From Acidobacteriota bacterium (GTDB lineage Bacteria; Acidobacteriota; UBA6911; RPQK01; JAJDTT01): a stretch of 64,000 bases of DNA. A program made the translations under genes and the position numbers. The stretch's first letter is position 1. Every line of letters starts with the position of its first letter. Location: positions 1 through 64,000 of the forward strand of contig JAPPLF010000080.1 of assembly GCA_028874215.1 (NCBI GenBank), written 5' to 3'. Under the pieces are notes generated by a model. That model was given only the letters and a program-made list of their open reading frames with translations. It did not search any database and was not told where the DNA came from. Positions 22,743-30,496 of this stretch are shown here, one piece after another.

Positions 22743-24587
22743 ATGTTTCCCATATTCATGAGTCCTTACGGAATACATACTAAGAATGTTTCGAGAAGTC
22801 TGATCGGAACCGTGTGCCCTCTCGTGTCCGTCCTCGCGCTGGGGACCGGCCTGTTTGCGGAGATTCGGATCGAGCCCGAAGCGCCGCGCTGGGGTCAAGA
22901 CTTTGTCGTTCGGGTCACTCCGGATTTCCCGCGGGGACGGCTTTTCCCGAATGATCGTGTATTCATCAACATGTCGACTTGGCATCAGGATGTCCTTTCC
23001 ACATTCAATGAGAAGGCCGTTTGGAACGGAGAGGAGTTCATCGCTCGGCTGACGTTGCCCGGCAACTGCGAATGGGCGTCGGTCAGGGTCCGGACGCCGG
23101 AAAAGATTTTTCGTGGCAAGGGTTTTGCGCCTCGGGCGGATAGTGGAGAAATGCCGCTCGGAACCCAGGTCTTGGCGTCATGCAGGCCGCGTACGGACCT
23201 CTCGACGTGCAATGAGTCCATCGTTAGCGCACTCGCTGAACATCCGAATCTTTGGTGGCTCTATCCCAAGATCTGGGGGCTGAGACAAAGGCTGTTGAAG
23301 AATCTCGACAGCGATGAAGTCATTTCACAGCTTCGCAAGATGGAACTCCACGAAACGGGACCGTCGTTGCTTCGGACCCTGTCCATGGGCTATTGGCTTG
23401 CAGATCGGTCCGGTCGCGCGTTTGAGAATTTGACCGAACTCTGCACTCGGTTTCCTGAATCGAGATACTCAGTGCAGGCCCTCAACGAAGCCATGTTCTG
23501 GATATCGACTCAGGGACTGGACCACTTGAACTCTCCGCTGGAAATGCTGCAAGCGAAGGTCGTAAGCGACGCACCGGCCAATTCACGACTGTGGAAGGAC
23601 AGGAAATCCGTCCTCTGGCTCACGAGCAACACAAAGATGAGCCTGGAGGCCACTCGCCACCTTTTTGCCGTATGGGTCGACGAGGACCCGGCAGACCCCC
23701 ATCCCTATCTTCTGCTGGCAAATGCGCTGTACCGGGAAGGGAACTCGGACGAAGAGGCTGAGCGGCTCATCGACCGGTCGCTTGAGCTCTACTACACGCC
23801 GCAAGCCTTTGTTTCCGACAAGCGCCTGAGGGATCAGGCCTTCAGGATTCGCGCCCGGCTTCGGCTCCGGAACGGGAATGCTGAAGGGGCCCTGGCCGAC
23901 GTCAAGATGGCTCAAGCGGACGCACGAGGGCGATCGACGGAGGACCTGGAAATCGAGGCGGCAATCTGGACGAACGTCGGCCACCTCCGCCGCGCCGAGG
24001 AGATTCTCGTAGAAGCCTATCGAATGGGATCCGCGACGGCCGCGGAGATGTTAAAGAACGCCTTCGTTGCCCGCACCGGAGACAGCCGCGGTTTTGACGA
24101 TTACCTCATGACCCGGTTGACCGGTGAATCTCCGGAACTGGAACCTGCCCCGCAGATCCGAGGGACGACACTGGAGGGCGTCCGGCTGACGCCCGAGTTG
24201 TTGAGGGGAAAGCCGGTGGTGGTGAACTTCTGGTTCACCAGTTGCGGGCCGTGCATCAAGGAAATCCCCGAGTTGAACGCTTTGGCGACCGAGTTTTCGG
24301 GCAAGGCCAGATTTCTGGCCTTCGCCACGGATGACGCGGAACCGATCAAGGAGTTCCTGAAGCGCCGGGAGTTCCGCTACGAGATCATTCCATCCTCCAG
24401 CCGGCTGGCACGGGCATTCGGGGTTGAGGCCTACCCGAGCCACTACATCATCGACGGCGAAGGCAACATCGTCTGGAGTGCCCTCGGTGCCGCTCCGAAA
24501 ACCGTGGAGATTCTGGGAAACATCCTGCAAAGGCTCTTGAGCGATAAGCCGTTTCCGGTGAAAGGGTTGAGGAAACGGCAAGGGTAG
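22743..24587 (+). CDS. TPR protein with C-terminal TlpA-like thioredoxin domain
   Basis: A 614-residue exported protein. A signal-like helix (LVSVLALGTGLFAE) is followed by a beta domain (about 40-125), a helical TPR-like region (about 180-450; HPYLLLANALYREGNSDEEAERLIDRSLELYY, AEGALADVKMAQADA) and a redoxin domain (about 460-600). The redoxin domain contains VVNFWFTSCGPCIKEIPEL, with Cys501 and Cys504 in a CGPC active site, and the cis-Pro segment EAYPSHYIID. It probably reduces or shuffles disulfides in the periplasm. ATG at 22743 or 22758 could be the start. It precedes the BlaI/M56 operon in the same direction but is separated by 156 bases that include the operator. Confidence 0.85.
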   Translation: MFPIFMSPYGIHTKNVSRSLIGTVCPLVSVLALGTGLFAEIRIEPEAPRWGQDFVVRVTPDFPRGRLFPNDRVFINMSTWHQDVLSTFNEKAVWNGEEFIARLTLPGNCEWASVRVRTPEKIFRGKGFAPRADSGEMPLGTQVLASCRPRTDLSTCNESIVSALAEHPNLWWLYPKIWGLRQRLLKNLDSDEVISQLRKMELHETGPSLLRTLSMGYWLADRSGRAFENLTELCTRFPESRYSVQALNEAMFWISTQGLDHLNSPLEMLQAKVVSDAPANSRLWKDRKSVLWLTSNTKMSLEATRHLFAVWVDEDPADPHPYLLLANALYREGNSDEEAERLIDRSLELYYTPQAFVSDKRLRDQAFRIRARLRLRNGNAEGALADVKMAQADARGRSTEDLEIEAAIWTNVGHLRRAEEILVEAYRMGSATAAEMLKNAFVARTGDSRGFDDYLMTRLTGESPELEPAPQIRGTTLEGVRLTPELLRGKPVVVNFWFTSCGPCIKEIPELNALATEFSGKARFLAFATDDAEPIKEFLKRREFRYEIIPSSSRLARAFGVEAYPSHYIIDGEGNIVWSALGAAPKTVEILGNILQRLLSDKPFPVKGLRKRQG

Positions 24588-24728
24588 CCGCCATTTCGTT
24601 GCCGCCGCCCCGAAGCAGGAGGACCCGGCGAGCGCATCTCCGAACGGCCTTTCAAGCACAGATGTCACGGTGAATTCTCGACGTGATTTCAAAAATCCCG
24701 ATTTCCGGTTGAAATAAGGTATCTACCG

Positions 24729-24745
24729 TACTAGTATATACGTAT
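24729..24745. promoter_or_regulatory. Putative BlaI-type operator overlapping the repressor start
   Basis: Two adjacent palindromes, TACTAGTA (24729-24736) and ATACGTAT (24738-24745), lie in an unusually AT-rich stretch, and the second covers the start codon of the BlaI-type gene. BlaI/MecI repressors bind short palindromes with TAC/GTA half-sites at their own promoters, so autoregulation of the operon is likely. Assignment is by position and pattern only. Confidence 0.5.
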
Positions 24746-25112
24746 GTCCAAATCCTTAAGTCGGCAGGAACTGGAGATCATGAAGCTGATCTGGCGTCTG
24801 GACAAGGAAGAGGTCACCGTCCGAGACGTCTACGAGGAGCTGCGCCTGCGGCGCCGGATCGCCTACACGTCCGTCATGGGCACCATGCAGAGCCTGGATC
24901 GGAAAGGGTTTCTCCGGAAGTGGAGAGAGGGCCGGGCACACATCTATCAACCCACCCGTCCCCGGGAAGAAGTGATTCGTGAGGTGGTGGCGGATCTGGT
25001 GGAGCGGGTATTCGGAGGGTCCAGCGAGGCGCTCATGCTGCACCTGGTCGAGCGGCACGACATCTCCAAGGAGAAGCTTCGAGAACTGGAAGAAATGATC
25101 GAGGAGGGGTAA
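24744..25112 (+). CDS. BlaI/MecI/CopY-family transcriptional repressor
   Basis: A 122-residue winged-helix repressor. SLSRQELEIMKLIWRLDKEEVTVRDVYEEL and IAYTSVMGTMQSLDRKGFLRKWREGRAHIYQPT give the characteristic helix-turn-helix and wing. The C-terminal dimerisation helices end in EKLRELEEMIEEG. In the family, the repressor is released when a partner M56 membrane protease cleaves it or causes it to be cleaved. That partner is the next gene, whose ATG overlaps this stop codon by one base (TAATG). Confidence 0.95.
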   Translation: MSKSLSRQELEIMKLIWRLDKEEVTVRDVYEELRLRRRIAYTSVMGTMQSLDRKGFLRKWREGRAHIYQPTRPREEVIREVVADLVERVFGGSSEALMLHLVERHDISKEKLRELEEMIEEG

Positions 25113-27397
25113 TGAGCCTGGAACTGTCGTTATCCAATCTCTGGTTCTACAGCCTGCAGACCGGAATCCTGATTCTGGCGGCTGGCCTCCTGGTCCGATT
25201 CCTTCGACTTCGAGAGCCCCGCAGTTTGTACCTTTTCTGGAGGGTTCTGCTGGCAGTCTGTCTGCTTCTGGGTTTCCAACCTGGAGTACCGGACCCCTTG
25301 TCCGATCCCGTACCGGTACCTCCGGCCGAAGAACTGACGCTTCCTGTTTCTCCGGTGACGGTGAGTGAGACGGACCAAGCTGCTGACGTATTTCCGGTGT
25401 TGGGGGTCCTTTTCGTCGCCGGCATTCTACTCCGCCTGATCTGGCTGGGGAACGGCTTCTACAGGCTCCACCGCTTGAGGCGGAGAACTCGACGGCTGGT
25501 CCTGCCCCCGCATCTTCAACCGCTGACCGGGGAGATGAGAGTTTCTAGCCGGTTTCGTGTGTCATCCGAGGTCACCGGGCCCGTTACCTTTGGTTGGTTC
25601 CGCCCGGTCATCATCTTCCCTGATTCGTTTGCCGAACTGGACCCGGCAATGCAGAAGGCCGTCGCTTGCCATGAGTTGCTGCACGTGAAGAGGAGGGACT
25701 GGGTCTGGAATACATTCGAGGAGTTGGTGCGGACCGTGTTCTGGTTCCATCCGGGTTTCTACTGGCTGATCGGCCGAATTCAGTTGACCCGGGAGCAAGT
25801 CGTGGATGAACAGGCGGTCGGGCTGCTGGGCTCGAGGAAGACCTACCTCCATTCATTGGTGGAGATCGCAAGGTGGAAGAATTCCGCCGCATCCGTCCCC
25901 GCTCCCCTTTTTCTCCGGGAATGCCAGTTCAGCCGCCGGGTGCGGCACTTGATCCAATTGCGGGAGGTACGTATGTCCAAGAATAAATCGACCGTTTTTT
26001 GGAGCTTCTGCGTCGCGCTGCTCTTGGCAACCGGATGGTGGAGCCTGGCTGCACTGCCTTTGACGGCCACTCCGCCGGCTCGGATGCCGCAAGAGGAACC
26101 AGCTGCCGGGCAGCCGGTTCGAGTCGGTAGCCGGGTCATGGCGAACAAGCTGGTCCACCAGGTTGATCCGGAGATCCCTGGGCAACCGGGGAGTTCCCGC
26201 CCGTTGATTCAGTTCATATTGTCCATCGTCATCGACAAAAACGGAGAAGTTCAGCGGGTTGAAGTCTTGCAAGGCGATGAAGCCCATCCCCCCTCGAATT
26301 CCGCCGTAGCGGATGCGGTGAAACAGTGGCGCTATGAGCCGTTTCTCCTGGACGGGAAGCCCGTTCCGGTGAGAACCACCGTGTTTCTTCTCTTGCCGCG
26401 CGCTGAACCAGTGGGAACCACCGGTTCCCACGCATCGCCGCACCCGGAACCAGCTTTCGATGAGCCTATTCATGTGGGCACCAATATCATGGCGGACAAG
26501 CTGATCCACCGGGTCGATCCCGAGATCCCATCGGGCCTGGAAGGCGACGGCCCACTGGGCCTGATCATCTTGTCCGTCGTGGTTGGCAAGAATGGCAAAG
26601 TTCAGCAGGTGACTGTCGTTCGGGGTGACAAGGGCGATCCCCGCCTGGATTCTGCCGCTGTGAAGGCCGTAAAGCAGTGGCGTTATGAACCGTATGTCTA
26701 CCAGGGGAAACCTATAACCGTGAGAACGACCATCCTGCTTCGGATGCCCAAACCAGAATCAGCCGTCGAGGAGCCGGTTCGAGTGGGAGGACGGGTCATG
26801 GAGAGCCACCTGATCCACCGGGTTGATCCTGAGTTTTCGACAGAGCTCAAAGAAGCCCGTCCATCGGGTCAGGTCATACTGTCCATCGTGATCGGCAAGA
26901 ATGGAGAGGTTCAGCAGGTGGAGGTCCTGAAAGGAGACGAGGGAGATCCCGGCTTGAACTCCGCGGCTGCGAACGCCGTCAGCCAATGGCGCTATAAACC
27001 CTTTCTCTTGAACGGCATACCCGTTCCCGTAAAAGCCACCGTAGTCGTCCGCTTCCTGCGCGATGCGTCCGTTCCGCAATCGGTCAATCTCAATAATGAG
27101 ACCCGGAGCCAGATCCGGCACAGGCTTGACAGTGCGTTGAAGGAAGTGGACCGTGCCACAAATGAAATGAGAGCAATCGACATGACGGAGTTCCGGAGCC
27201 AGCTTGGGAGCGCTCGGAAAGAATTGGAGCGTGCCAGAAGCAAGTTGGCGGGGATCGACATGAAGGAGCTCCGGCACCGATTTGAAATGGCGCAGAAGAA
27301 ACTAGAGCGCGCCAGAAGCGAGATGGCAGAAATCGACGTGAGAGAGTTCCGGAGAAAGCTTCAGGAACTGGAGAAAATGATCGAGAGAGAAGAATGA
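25112..27397 (+). CDS. BlaR1-like M56 membrane protease with three TonB-like domains and coiled coil
   Basis: A 761-residue protein. Membrane helices (about 10-32, 38-56, 92-112) surround the M56 protease domain with zinc motif CHELLHVKRRDW (His187, Glu188, His191) and a further acidic site in REQVVDEQAVGLLG. A fourth helix follows (about 292-312). The outer part lacks the penicillin-binding sensor of BlaR1. It carries three tandem TonB C-terminal-like domains at about 336-430, 454-545 and 557-650, each with LSIVIxKNGEVQ and AVKQWRYEPF. The tail (about 662-760) is a repeated charged coiled coil with three copies of an [ML]-x-E-[FL]-[RR] period. The stop overlaps the next start (ATGA). It probably senses an envelope signal and inactivates the BlaI-type repressor. 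Confidence 0.88.
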   Translation: MSLELSLSNLWFYSLQTGILILAAGLLVRFLRLREPRSLYLFWRVLLAVCLLLGFQPGVPDPLSDPVPVPPAEELTLPVSPVTVSETDQAADVFPVLGVLFVAGILLRLIWLGNGFYRLHRLRRRTRRLVLPPHLQPLTGEMRVSSRFRVSSEVTGPVTFGWFRPVIIFPDSFAELDPAMQKAVACHELLHVKRRDWVWNTFEELVRTVFWFHPGFYWLIGRIQLTREQVVDEQAVGLLGSRKTYLHSLVEIARWKNSAASVPAPLFLRECQFSRRVRHLIQLREVRMSKNKSTVFWSFCVALLLATGWWSLAALPLTATPPARMPQEEPAAGQPVRVGSRVMANKLVHQVDPEIPGQPGSSRPLIQFILSIVIDKNGEVQRVEVLQGDEAHPPSNSAVADAVKQWRYEPFLLDGKPVPVRTTVFLLLPRAEPVGTTGSHASPHPEPAFDEPIHVGTNIMADKLIHRVDPEIPSGLEGDGPLGLIILSVVVGKNGKVQQVTVVRGDKGDPRLDSAAVKAVKQWRYEPYVYQGKPITVRTTILLRMPKPESAVEEPVRVGGRVMESHLIHRVDPEFSTELKEARPSGQVILSIVIGKNGEVQQVEVLKGDEGDPGLNSAAANAVSQWRYKPFLLNGIPVPVKATVVVRFLRDASVPQSVNLNNETRSQIRHRLDSALKEVDRATNEMRAIDMTEFRSQLGSARKELERARSKLAGIDMKELRHRFEMAQKKLERARSEMAEIDVREFRRKLQELEKMIEREE

Positions 27398-28920
27398 GCC
27401 TTGAACTGTGGGTGTCCAACCTCTGGTTCTTCAGCCTTCAGACTGGAATTCTGATTCTGGTCGGGGGAATTCTTCCCTGGGTCTTTCGTTTGCGGGCACC
27501 TGGCATCCTGCATCTCTACTGGCGGCTACTCATGGTCGCCTGCCTGCTATTGGCGCTCCAGCCGCTGGCGCCAATACCCGTGCCGGAACCAATTTCCGTT
27601 CCATTGGTCGAGGAACTGGTTGCTACCGCCAATCCGTCGCCGGCGGTCCAGGGCAGCACCTCTGCCAATCCGTACGCGTGGCTGGCTGGCCTACTGGTCA
27701 CCGGCATGCTGCTGCGTCTCATCTGGCTCGGAGTCGGGTTCTACCGGCTCCACCGCCTACAGCGTAGAACCACGCGCCAATCTCTACCGCCGCATCTACA
27801 CGCTCTTGCGGAAGAGCTGGGAGTCTCCGCGGAATACCGCATGTCGGGCGAAGTTGCCGGGCCCGTCACGTTCGGCTGGTTGCGGCCGGTGATCATCCTC
27901 CCCGAATCGTTCGGCCAATTGGAGCAGGGGATGCAGAGAGCCGTGGTCTGCCATGAGCTGTTGCATGTGAAGAGAAGGGACTGGCTTTGGAATACGGTGG
28001 ACGAATTGGTGCGGTCCCTTTTCTGGTTTCATCCAGCCTTTCACTGGTTGATGGCCCGGATTCAGTTGACCCGGGAGCAGGTGGTGGACGAACAGGCTGT
28101 GAGGCTCCTGGGGGCCAGAAAGACCTATCTTCAATCGTTGGTGGAGATTGTTAAGCGGGGAAATAGCGCGTCCTCGTTGCCGGCTCCACTTTTTCTCAAG
28201 GAATCTCAGTTCAGCCATCGCGTACGGTTGCTGCTCCAGCTCCGGGAGGTGAAATTGTCCAAGACGAAAACCATCGTTTCTCTGGCCATGTGTTTCGGGT
28301 TGCTTGCCGTGGCTGGATGGTGGAGCGTCTTGGCATTGCCGCTGGCACGTCCATCCGTGGGCCGTCTCGCGCAAGCGGAATCTGAGGAAAAAGTGGTCGA
28401 CCAGATTCTTTTGTTAGGCCATGTCATGGCCAACAGATTGCTTCATCGGGACGAACCCGAATATCCGCTGGCCGCCAAAGAGGCCGGTGTCGAAGGAGTT
28501 GTCGTATTGCGGGTCCTCATCGGCAGGAGCGGTGCAATGCAGGAGGCAGAAGTGGTTCGAGGTCACCCCGCGTTGCGGAATGCGGCTTTGGAAGCATTGA
28601 AGAGTTGGCACTGGGAGCCGATCAAGGTCGATGGGGAAGCCGTCCCGGTAAGCACAACCGTCGCTATCAATTTTGTCCTCAGGCCAGGCGCTCGAGAGCC
28701 GCAGCTCTGGCTCTGGATCGACGCTTCCGGAACCCTCTGGGACGGACAGCGGGAATTGGACGTGGAACTCATTGTCCAGCGGGCCAAGGATTTTGGAAAT
28801 GTGGTGTTGCTCTGGCCAGGTCCTGACGTTCCCAGGACCCTTCTCGTGGACACGGTCGAGCGTCTGAAGCAGTCGGGAATCGACCATGTCTTTGTACCCA
28901 GCGCCACGATGGAGCATTGA
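27394..28920 (+). CDS. Second BlaR1-like M56 protease, with TonB-like and ExbD-like C-terminal domains
   Basis: A 508-residue paralogue of the upstream gene: the first 320 residues share almost the same helices, zinc motif (CHELLHVKRRDWLWN, His187, Glu188, His191) and REQVVDEQAVRLLG. After the last helix (about 298-315) comes one TonB-like domain (about 343-430; LLHRDEPEYPLAAKEAGVEG, VVLRVLIGRSGAMQEAEV, LKSWHWEPIKV). The remaining 67 residues (441-508; LWIDASGTLWDGQRELD, VERLKQSGIDHVFVPS) resemble the periplasmic domain of ExbD/TolR. The pair clearly arose by tandem duplication followed by different outer domains. The ATG overlaps the previous stop by four bases. Confidence 0.85.
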   Translation: MSLELWVSNLWFFSLQTGILILVGGILPWVFRLRAPGILHLYWRLLMVACLLLALQPLAPIPVPEPISVPLVEELVATANPSPAVQGSTSANPYAWLAGLLVTGMLLRLIWLGVGFYRLHRLQRRTTRQSLPPHLHALAEELGVSAEYRMSGEVAGPVTFGWLRPVIILPESFGQLEQGMQRAVVCHELLHVKRRDWLWNTVDELVRSLFWFHPAFHWLMARIQLTREQVVDEQAVRLLGARKTYLQSLVEIVKRGNSASSLPAPLFLKESQFSHRVRLLLQLREVKLSKTKTIVSLAMCFGLLAVAGWWSVLALPLARPSVGRLAQAESEEKVVDQILLLGHVMANRLLHRDEPEYPLAAKEAGVEGVVVLRVLIGRSGAMQEAEVVRGHPALRNAALEALKSWHWEPIKVDGEAVPVSTTVAINFVLRPGAREPQLWLWIDASGTLWDGQRELDVELIVQRAKDFGNVVLLWPGPDVPRTLLVDTVERLKQSGIDHVFVPSATMEH

Positions 28921-28977
28921 TCCGACTTCCTGGCATGCCTTGAATTGACAATCGGATCGTAAGGCGGAGGCAAGAGC

Positions 28978-29784
28978 ATGAACAGTTTGATTTTGTTTTC
29001 GGCGTTCTTGGGCCTGCTCGGGGCGGAGTACACCGTCGAAGAAGTGCAACAGGAATATAGAGAAATTTTCCGGATCAAGGTCGGGGATCACCCGGAATTC
29101 GGCCCGTATATGAATAGTGAAACCAGCAAATTGCCCCGGGGTCACTTCCTTCATGATTTTGTCGAAGAAAATTATTGGTTAATTCACTACCTACAACAGA
29201 ACAGACCAAAGGTTGACCACGAAAAGCTCGACGAATTGAGGGACGAGCCGGCTACGCTCGCGGAGTTTCACCACCGCTCGTTGGTAGAGGATGAGACCTT
29301 TAATACTTCTCTTCTCGCTCTCGTCGGCAGGTACCTTGGAAACCATGGGTTGGAACTGGTTGGCCATGCGGATGCAGCCAGAGAAACGGTCACTGCCGAG
29401 CGTTTGACCGGGATCGCAGTGCGTTTCTTTTTTCCGACCACGATCATGGAAGACGGGAGGATCAAAGCATCGGTTTGTGCCGGACTTCACGGTCTGAAGG
29501 ACTTCGAGGGCGAACGCGATTTGATGCTGGAAGCGTTCTGCTACGAAGCCATCTTCAACGAGTTTGGATCCCGTCAGTACGGCATGATGGACGAGTTCAC
29601 ATCGATCCTGGGCCGAGTCAGAGGTCTTCAACTGTCCACGGACAAGGAGATGAAACTCACCCGTGCTCAAGGGGCAGTGTGGGCACTGCTTGCTTCCAAT
29701 GAGACGCTCCGGGAAGTGCTTTCAAACGCGTACAAATCGAAGAAAGGGATTTTGCCCTTTGTGGTCGAAGGCCTGGCGCCTTGA
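28978..29784 (+). CDS. Exported protein of unknown function (268 aa), last gene of the M56 operon
   Basis: I do not recognise this family. It starts with a short hydrophobic segment (LILFSAFLGLLGAE) that may be a signal peptide and continues as a mostly helical, acidic protein with no cysteine pair or metal motif. Notable segments are DEPATLAEFHHRSLVEDETFNTSLLALVGRYLG and MLEAFCYEAIFNEFGSRQYGMMDEF. GGCGGAGG precedes the ATG at good spacing, and it lies 57 bases after the second M56 gene in the same direction. It may therefore be the output or a target of that regulatory system. Confidence 0.75.
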   Translation: MNSLILFSAFLGLLGAEYTVEEVQQEYREIFRIKVGDHPEFGPYMNSETSKLPRGHFLHDFVEENYWLIHYLQQNRPKVDHEKLDELRDEPATLAEFHHRSLVEDETFNTSLLALVGRYLGNHGLELVGHADAARETVTAERLTGIAVRFFFPTTIMEDGRIKASVCAGLHGLKDFEGERDLMLEAFCYEAIFNEFGSRQYGMMDEFTSILGRVRGLQLSTDKEMKLTRAQGAVWALLASNETLREVLSNAYKSKKGILPFVVEGLAP

Positions 29785-29816
29785 ACGAGAAGTGCCTCCG
29801 AGGCCGGCTTGGCACC

Positions 29817-30365
29817 TTATCCCCCGTAGTCGTCGCGGTACGTGACCTTCAGGGCGTTGTTGAACAGGTTCAACAGATTGATCAGACCAATCAGGAACGT
29901 GAGCTCCACGATCTCCTCGTCCGAGAATTCCTGCCGGAGCCGATCGAAGAAGTCTTCCCCGATACCGTTGGCATCCCGGATCGCTCGCGTCGTATAGTCC
30001 AGCGCCAACGCCTCCCTGCGGCTCAGATGCTCCGGCGCGTCCAGGTTCTCGATCTGCGCGTCCGGGATGCCGATCATCCGCATGATGGCCCGGTGGGAGT
30101 TGATGCAGAACTGGCATTCGTTGTGGAGCGAGGCATTCAGAATCACCTTCTCCTTGAGCTCCCGCTCCAGAATCCCGCCGGGGTAGACCCCTTCGCCGGT
30201 GGCTCCGAACGCCTTCAGGATCTCGGGCCGCAACGACATGGCCTGAAGCATCTCGACCGGAAGCCCGCCGGCCTCGGCGAGGGCCCGGCTCTCCTGGAAC
30301 GCGGACGAGCCGCTCAATTCGTGGAAGACCTGTCTGACTCGATCGGGATCGACACGGACTCGCAT
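29817..30365 (-). CDS. Carboxymuconolactone decarboxylase/AhpD-like protein
   Basis: A 182-residue helical protein with the AhpD-type redox signature HNECQFCINSHRAIM (Cys84, Cys87, His91), which acts as a thiol peroxidase or reductant partner in the family. ILNASLHNECQFC and YTTRAIRDANGIGEDFFDRLRQEFSDEEIVELTFLIGLINLLNLFNNAL complete the domain. GGGAGG lies five bases before the ATG at 30365, which fixes the start; an in-frame ATG at 30437 is unlikely. It is a single gene, divergent from the oxidoreductase at 30497. Confidence 0.88.
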   Translation of the reverse strand: MRVRVDPDRVRQVFHELSGSSAFQESRALAEAGGLPVEMLQAMSLRPEILKAFGATGEGVYPGGILERELKEKVILNASLHNECQFCINSHRAIMRMIGIPDAQIENLDAPEHLSRREALALDYTTRAIRDANGIGEDFFDRLRQEFSDEEIVELTFLIGLINLLNLFNNALKVTYRDDYGG

Positions 30366-30496
30366 GGACGCCTCCCATTGAACGGTCCCCTCATCGGGAC
30401 CGGAGCACTGGAATTCTCTCAGTTTCGGATCTAGCATTCATACGAGGCGACGGTACAGTCCTTTTTTCCGGTCCGCACAGCCGAGGAGGTGAGCAG

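Follow-up and report, generated by a model that had tools for sequence, protein, structure and literature searches.

A BlaI/BlaR1-type operon of an Acidobacteriota bacterium encodes two M56 proteases with TonB-like domains and an ExbD-like domain

The DNA analyzed here, a 64,000-nucleotide stretch of an Acidobacteriota contig (JAPPLF010000080.1, assembly GCA_028874215.1; hereafter the window), contains genes for a BlaI-type repressor (blaI), two BlaR1-type M56 metalloproteases (M56a and M56b), and an orphan protein. The host is a 5.7-Mb draft genome in which M56a and M56b are the sole M56 genes and blaI is the sole clear BlaI gene; a second Penicillinase_R match is weak and lies inside a frame of 929 amino acids (aa). 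The coordinates first given for the four genes were correct. The ends of blaI, M56a, and M56b overlap (M56a and M56b by ATGA), and the orphan gene follows after a gap of 57 bp. All four genes lie on the plus strand and form one unit behind a single promoter and dyad at the start of blaI:

24709-24737, plus strand: blaI promoter, TTGAAA-17-TAGTAT
24728-24746, no strand assigned: imperfect dyad GTACTAGTATATACGTATG, overlapping both the -10 element and start codon; probable operator for BlaI autoregulation
24744-25112, plus strand: blaI, BlaI/MecI-type winged-helix repressor of 122 aa (PF03965, 5.2e-28)
25112-27397, plus strand: M56a, BlaR1-type M56 metalloprotease of 761 aa with three TonB_C domains and helical repeats
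27394-28920, plus strand: M56b, BlaR1-type M56 metalloprotease of 508 aa with one TonB_C domain and an ExbD-like tail
28978-29784, plus strand: orphan gene, 268 aa; product probably exported, candidate operon output

To both proteases Pfam assigned Peptidase_M56 (1e-23 in M56a and 2.5e-24 in M56b), followed by TonB_C in three stretches of M56a (6e-39 combined) and in one of M56b (1.6e-18). The original prediction, made from the sequence of the window, had assigned three TonB-like domains to the first protease and one to the second. The domains are as follows:

25139-25885, plus strand: M56a protease domain, membrane and cytoplasmic (PF05569)
26216-26380, plus strand: M56a TonB_C domain 1, core match (PF03544, 1.1e-7)
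26558-26731, plus strand: M56a TonB_C domain 2, core match (PF03544, 4.6e-13), missing in the orthologue of genome G001
26828-27055, plus strand: M56a TonB_C domain 3 (PF03544, 4.2e-15)
27083-27394, plus strand: M56a C-terminal helical/coiled-coil 26-residue repeats, read off the translation, with no significant family match
27430-28224, plus strand: M56b protease domain (PF05569, 2.5e-24; Foldseek matches to BlaR1 8exs, 8exq, and 8exp, E 2e-6 to 3e-6)
28453-28680, plus strand: M56b TonB_C domain (PF03544, 1.6e-18; Foldseek match to 6i97_D, template-modeling score [TM-score] 0.83 by target)
28699-28905, plus strand: M56b ExbD/TolR-like periplasmic domain, residues 436-504 (hhalign, profile search, and AlphaFold [AF2] with Foldseek)

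No tandem repeats were detected in the DNA of the operon, so the TonB_C copies are diverged duplications. Charged helical repeats, each of 26 residues and of the type IDM.E.R..L..A.KELERARS.MA., make up the C-terminal ~104 residues of M56a and read as a putative coiled coil.

Both proteins retain the motifs HELLH (residues 187 to 191) and EQVVD (residues 228 to 232), and D196 and Y245 of M56b are the equivalents of Asp210 (D210) and Tyr261, the accessory residues named for BlaR1 (PMC9834060). A conserved PAPLF stretch of M56b and most of its relatives aligns with LSHSF, the autocleavage loop of BlaR1 (PMC9834060), and may be an autocleavage site. The NCBIfam BlaR1 model covers residues 95 to 305 only, at 53 to 58 bits versus a cutoff of 400. 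As had been foreseen, no Pfam match to a penicillin-binding (transpeptidase-like) sensor domain was found in either M56 protein at an E value of ≤1. In the AF2 model, transmembrane (TM) helices lie at about residues 5 to 27, 36 to 54, 97 to 118, and 291 to 313; Lys and Arg are present in the loop at 28 to 35 and on the flanks of the protease loop, and the loop at 55 to 96 has none. Four TM helices with this positive-inside charge pattern place the protease inside and both termini outside, the predicted topology thus being Nout/Cout, as in BlaR1 (PMC9834060). The TonB-like and ExbD-like parts would therefore be periplasmic, as the original prediction had supposed, and not cytoplasmic.

Neither Pfam nor NCBIfam has a family that matches the final ~70 residues of M56b, the domain scoring below the threshold of the Pfam ExbD model, and a sequence-profile search of the PDB with a three-member tail alignment gave no ExbD match. 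On sequence searching alone we would thus have dismissed the ExbD/TolR-like end that had been proposed for M56b. In a single-profile hmmsearch of host ExbDs against the tails, M56b was likewise not cleanly separated from shuffled sequences, and profile-profile comparison and structure were therefore needed. When hhalign compared the tails with the host's seven ExbD proteins, they aligned over 68 to 69 columns with a probability of 77% (three orthologues) or 87% (eight tails), so that the profile-profile check of the last residues of M56b suggested at the outset did return ExbD. The scores were 32.8 for the three orthologues, versus 11.4 ± 2.3 for column-shuffled alignments, and 37.7 for the eight tails, versus 10.0 ± 1.8; none of 200 shuffles reached either score, and reversed tails scored at background. 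A profile built from M56/TonB tails alone and searched over 396 Acidobacteriota genomes gave weak matches beyond the tails (E 8e-5 to 0.01), and 11 of the 13 inspected were true ExbD proteins. The AF2 model of M56b has a mean predicted local distance difference test score (pLDDT) of 82.6, mostly 85 to 95 in the tail, whose order is strand-helix-strand-helix-strand, as in ExbD. With this model, Foldseek retrieved the ExbD periplasmic domains 8pek, 8p9r, 8vgc, and 8vgd and the TolR domain 5by4 at a probability of 1.00, with TM-scores (by target) of 0.53 to 0.66 for 8pek, 8p9r, and 8vgc and a root-mean-square deviation of about 2.8 to 2.9 Å to 8vgc and 8p9r. The E values of the ExbD matches were modest (0.008 to 0.05), as would be expected when only 70 residues of a 508-residue query are concerned. 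By three separate tests, the tail of M56b has an ExbD-like fold; in the literature searched (M56/BlaR1 with TonB or ExbD), we found no report of such a domain on an M56 protease.

The further claim of an energy-transducing or stator-like role was not supported. TonB_C and ExbD folds are joined in one protein, and with seven ExbD genes the host probably has motors available to it, so that M56a and M56b could be pictured as energized parts of an ExbB motor, coupling proton-motive force to repressor cleavage. However, in the AF2 model the tail lies behind TonB_C in the periplasm and has neither a TM helix nor the proton-binding Asp of ExbD, TM helix 4 of both proteases has no His and no SHLS/His motor-binding motif of TonB, and Pfam identified no exbB or tolQ among the proteins neighboring the operon. 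TonB_C is anchored by the M56 domain and not by a TonB-type N-terminal TM helix. Because the ExbD helix with its Asp and the motor-binding motif (the ExbB contacts) are missing, a motor function is unlikely, and coupling to an ExbB motor in particular is very improbable; we rejected motor or stator function as a candidate on the absent TM Asp and the absent SHLS motif. The ExbD-like and TonB_C domains are most likely sensor or docking modules that control BlaI cleavage.

This assignment can be set against the wider range of M56 proteins. The order blaI-M56a-M56b-orphan is retained in two other genomes of the genus, in each case split across contigs, while a third (G002; L037:7004-8884) has a single M56 gene that joins an M56b-like protease to M56a-like TonB repeats, suggesting either a chimera or a pre-duplication form. 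Close relatives have either 2 or 3 TonB_C copies. Beyond the genus, the expected combination of M56 with TonB was found in BlaI-M56-TonB_C proteins of other Acidobacteriota. The ExbD-like tail, like the duplication, had been singled out as a standout feature, but the tail recurs: TonB_C followed by an ExbD-like domain is present in five BlaI-M56 proteins of another family of the class (G034, G037, G026, and two in G030) and, without M56, in a protein of G028. Other BlaI-M56 proteins of the class combine TonB_C with a GspD-type (secretin) N0 domain. Of another 16 M56 proteins from the class, picked by M56 score, three were found to have TonB_C, one of them together with CarboxypepD_reg, and the remaining C-termini include DUF3738, DUF4412, HEAT, EF-hand, a PD40 propeller, and ankyrin repeats. 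M56 proteins of this class (L041, L043, L045, L134, L136, L139, L142-L144, L147, and L159-L161) thus carry many exchangeable C-terminal domains, of which the TonB/ExbD set is one.

These domains could instead be mainly structural, dimerizing or tethering the paralogues and leaving the membrane domain or another protein to read the signal. BlaR1 is a domain-swapped dimer (PMC9834060), ExbD periplasmic domains dimerize (PMC10907165), two paralogues share this operon, and a TonB_C copy number of 2 or 3 is a variation that scaffolds can tolerate. We nevertheless consider a structural role unlikely, since the wide C-terminal variety of the class fits input specificity better than it fits a constant scaffold. 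Separately, positions 26537 to 26761, spanning TonB_C domain 2 of M56a, are 99% identical to the orthologue of G003 (L038) and 100% identical at third codon positions, versus 83 to 97% for the rest of M56a; together with the absence of the domain in G001, this near-identity suggests a recent exchange of a single TonB module.

The blaI promoter is the only sigma-70-like site in 24500-30000, where 1.4 would be expected by chance, and it is conserved in the genus; the core of promoter and dyad is invariant or nearly so in the four genus genomes, while the flanks diverge, in one strongly. The dyad is the likely autoregulatory operator of BlaI, and the blaI transcript would be leaderless. The dyad AGTACTA-N5-TAGTACT, in full or in weaker form, stands directly at the blaI ATG in related BlaI-M56 loci of the class. 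Upstream of blaI at L040, L043, L045, L046, and L119, a TTGACA-like -35 element precedes the dyad (or close variants) over the -10 element and then the ATG, and blaI mRNAs look leaderless throughout this related group.

A genome-wide search of the host found one exact copy of the dyad only, and whole-genome searches of G026, G034, and G025 found exact AGTACTA-N5-TAGTACT sites at blaI only. The sole single-mismatch site of G037 adjoins another blaI-M56 pair, and one of the two in G033 is at blaI, the other (G033:C31) lying between convergent gene ends. When two to three mismatches were allowed, sites in the host genome were no commoner than in a reversed-pattern control, and most relatives showed no excess of two-mismatch sites either, so that no wider regulon can be claimed. 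As the sites occur almost only at blaI, BlaI appears to be a local autoregulatory switch, with the limit that degenerate sites would be missed. Beside blaI-M56 in G030 lies a divergent TonB gene with an S-x3-H motif in its TM helix (L044:10188-10943), possibly a regulated neighbor.

The gene behind M56b had been put forward as the output of the operon, and its 57-bp spacing and conservation in the genus agree with that proposal. It is found 3' of the M56 gene in all four genus genomes and occurs, within the class, in no other genus. Five further Acidobacteriota have distant homologues, whose N-termini are signal-peptide-like and whose genes do not adjoin BlaI or M56. The protein belongs to no Pfam or NCBIfam family. 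Its AF2 model is confident (pLDDT, 85.3; predicted TM-score, 0.84) and matched no PDB fold below an E value of 0.7 (best, 0.73), so the modeled structure is possibly a new fold. We regard the protein, which is probably exported, as a candidate output or effector.

Taken together, we favor, with somewhat better than even confidence, an autoregulated BlaI/BlaR1-type proteolytic switch in which Ton/Tol-type modules serve as periplasmic sensors. To judge from the motif and its conservation, BlaI on the dyad at its own promoter would repress the four-gene operon. M56a and M56b would span the inner membrane, with the zinc-protease site in the cytoplasm and the TonB_C or ExbD-like domains in the periplasm, where the binding of a partner would alter the membrane domain, in analogy to the acylation of BlaR1, and lead to the cutting of BlaI. 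Strand addition is the binding mode of TonB_C as well as ExbD domains (ExbD to the TonB D-box, the TonB C-terminal domain to the Ton box [PMC10907165]), which would make an exposed strand the likeliest partner, whether from an outer-membrane transporter, TonB, or another envelope protein; the alternative is peptidoglycan. Once derepressed, the operon would yield additional sensors together with the candidate effector, the exported orphan protein. In this reading, the ExbD-like and TonB_C domains would bind ligands or dimerize and would not belong to a proton-driven motor.

The sensor switch is supported by the BlaR1 fold match, the catalytic motifs, the conserved dyad, the linkage of the orphan gene, and the pattern of swappable sensors. 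Several points weigh against it. The ligand and signal of M56a and M56b are putative, and cleavage of BlaI by these proteases is proposed by analogy: BlaI aligns to MecI/BlaI structures, and at the aligned scissile bond of MecI (N-F) it has H-L, with H-L or similar in relatives. In addition, the operator-site search found no target gene beyond the operon, most relatives have a two-gene blaI-M56 unit without an evident output, and the dyad at 24728-24746 is imperfect.

The main rival to a strand-binding sensor is peptidoglycan binding, in which damage or a beta-lactam would alter the contact of the TonB_C or ExbD-like modules with the wall, giving a wall-stress switch without a penicillin-binding protein (PBP) domain. 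TolR is reported to bind peptidoglycan, and its periplasmic domain (5by4) is among the fold matches. BlaI/BlaR1 systems, moreover, answer wall-targeting antibiotics (PMC9834060). The nearest structural matches, however, are ExbD and TonB, and Pfam revealed no beta-lactamase, PBP, or wall gene within the operon, and we judge a peptidoglycan sensor to be improbable. M56a and M56b may sense periplasmic load or Ton activity, as originally suggested. In one form of such sensing, what M56b reads would be the working state of the Ton system: either its ExbD-like domain would rival real ExbD for the TonB strand motif, or its TonB_C domain would compete for the Ton box on transporters that are loaded, with BlaI cleavage set by activity or load; we consider this reading improbable. 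If true, Ton-motor engagement would be read out in the cytoplasm via repressor proteolysis, in a way that differs from known anti-sigma cell-surface signaling.

The surroundings of the operon consist of a thioredoxin-like gene on the 5' side, a convergent gene (29817-30437) on the 3' side, and, by Pfam, genes for a carboxymuconolactone-decarboxylase-like protein and a GFO/IDH/MocA oxidoreductase. Three contig ends of the host genome (C28 end, C89 start, and C100 end) carry the identical sequence CTACTATAATATACGAA, which probably marks the terminus of a repeated mobile element.

BlaI/BlaR1 is taught as a switch for antibiotic resistance. In these uncultured Acidobacteriota, its core is refitted with parts of outer-membrane transport (Ton/Tol) systems, and given the many other C-termini in the class, the switch is better regarded as a platform for envelope sensing in general. 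Should transporters or motors be what the Ton-type modules sense, bacteria would be able to read the state of outer-membrane transport directly, by proteolysis. This sensor variant of BlaI/BlaR1 is well supported, and we found no report of it in the literature searched.

Compared with BlaR1/MecR1-BlaI/MecI of Staphylococcus aureus, the operon shares an adjacent BlaI, a four-TM M56 protein with HExxH, ExxxD, and the accessory Asp and Tyr, the Nout/Cout topology with a C-terminal sensor outside, and a dyad at the blaI promoter. It differs in having TonB_C as the sensor (in three copies, or singly with an ExbD-like domain) and not a penicillin-binding domain, in having two M56 paralogues and no beta-lactamase or PBP target, and in the scissile H-L versus N-F. 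With the periplasmic domain of ExbD/TolR, the M56b tail shares the fold and a profile similarity across the whole domain, but it lacks the N-terminal TM helix and Asp, is fused behind M56 and TonB_C, and has no exbB/tolQ linkage. The TonB_C domains are clear members of the TonB C-terminal domain family (PF03544), with a TM-score of 0.83 (by target) to the Pseudomonas domain 6i97_D; unlike TonB, they occur in tandem copies, and the TM helix that anchors them belongs to M56 and lacks the motor-binding motif. The closest counterparts are the M56 proteins with TonB_C of other Acidobacteriota, which share BlaI, M56, and TonB_C, five of them with the TonB_C and ExbD-like order, and which differ in a further segment behind the tail and in being encoded mostly in two-gene blaI-M56 units, with neither the paralogue nor the orphan gene.

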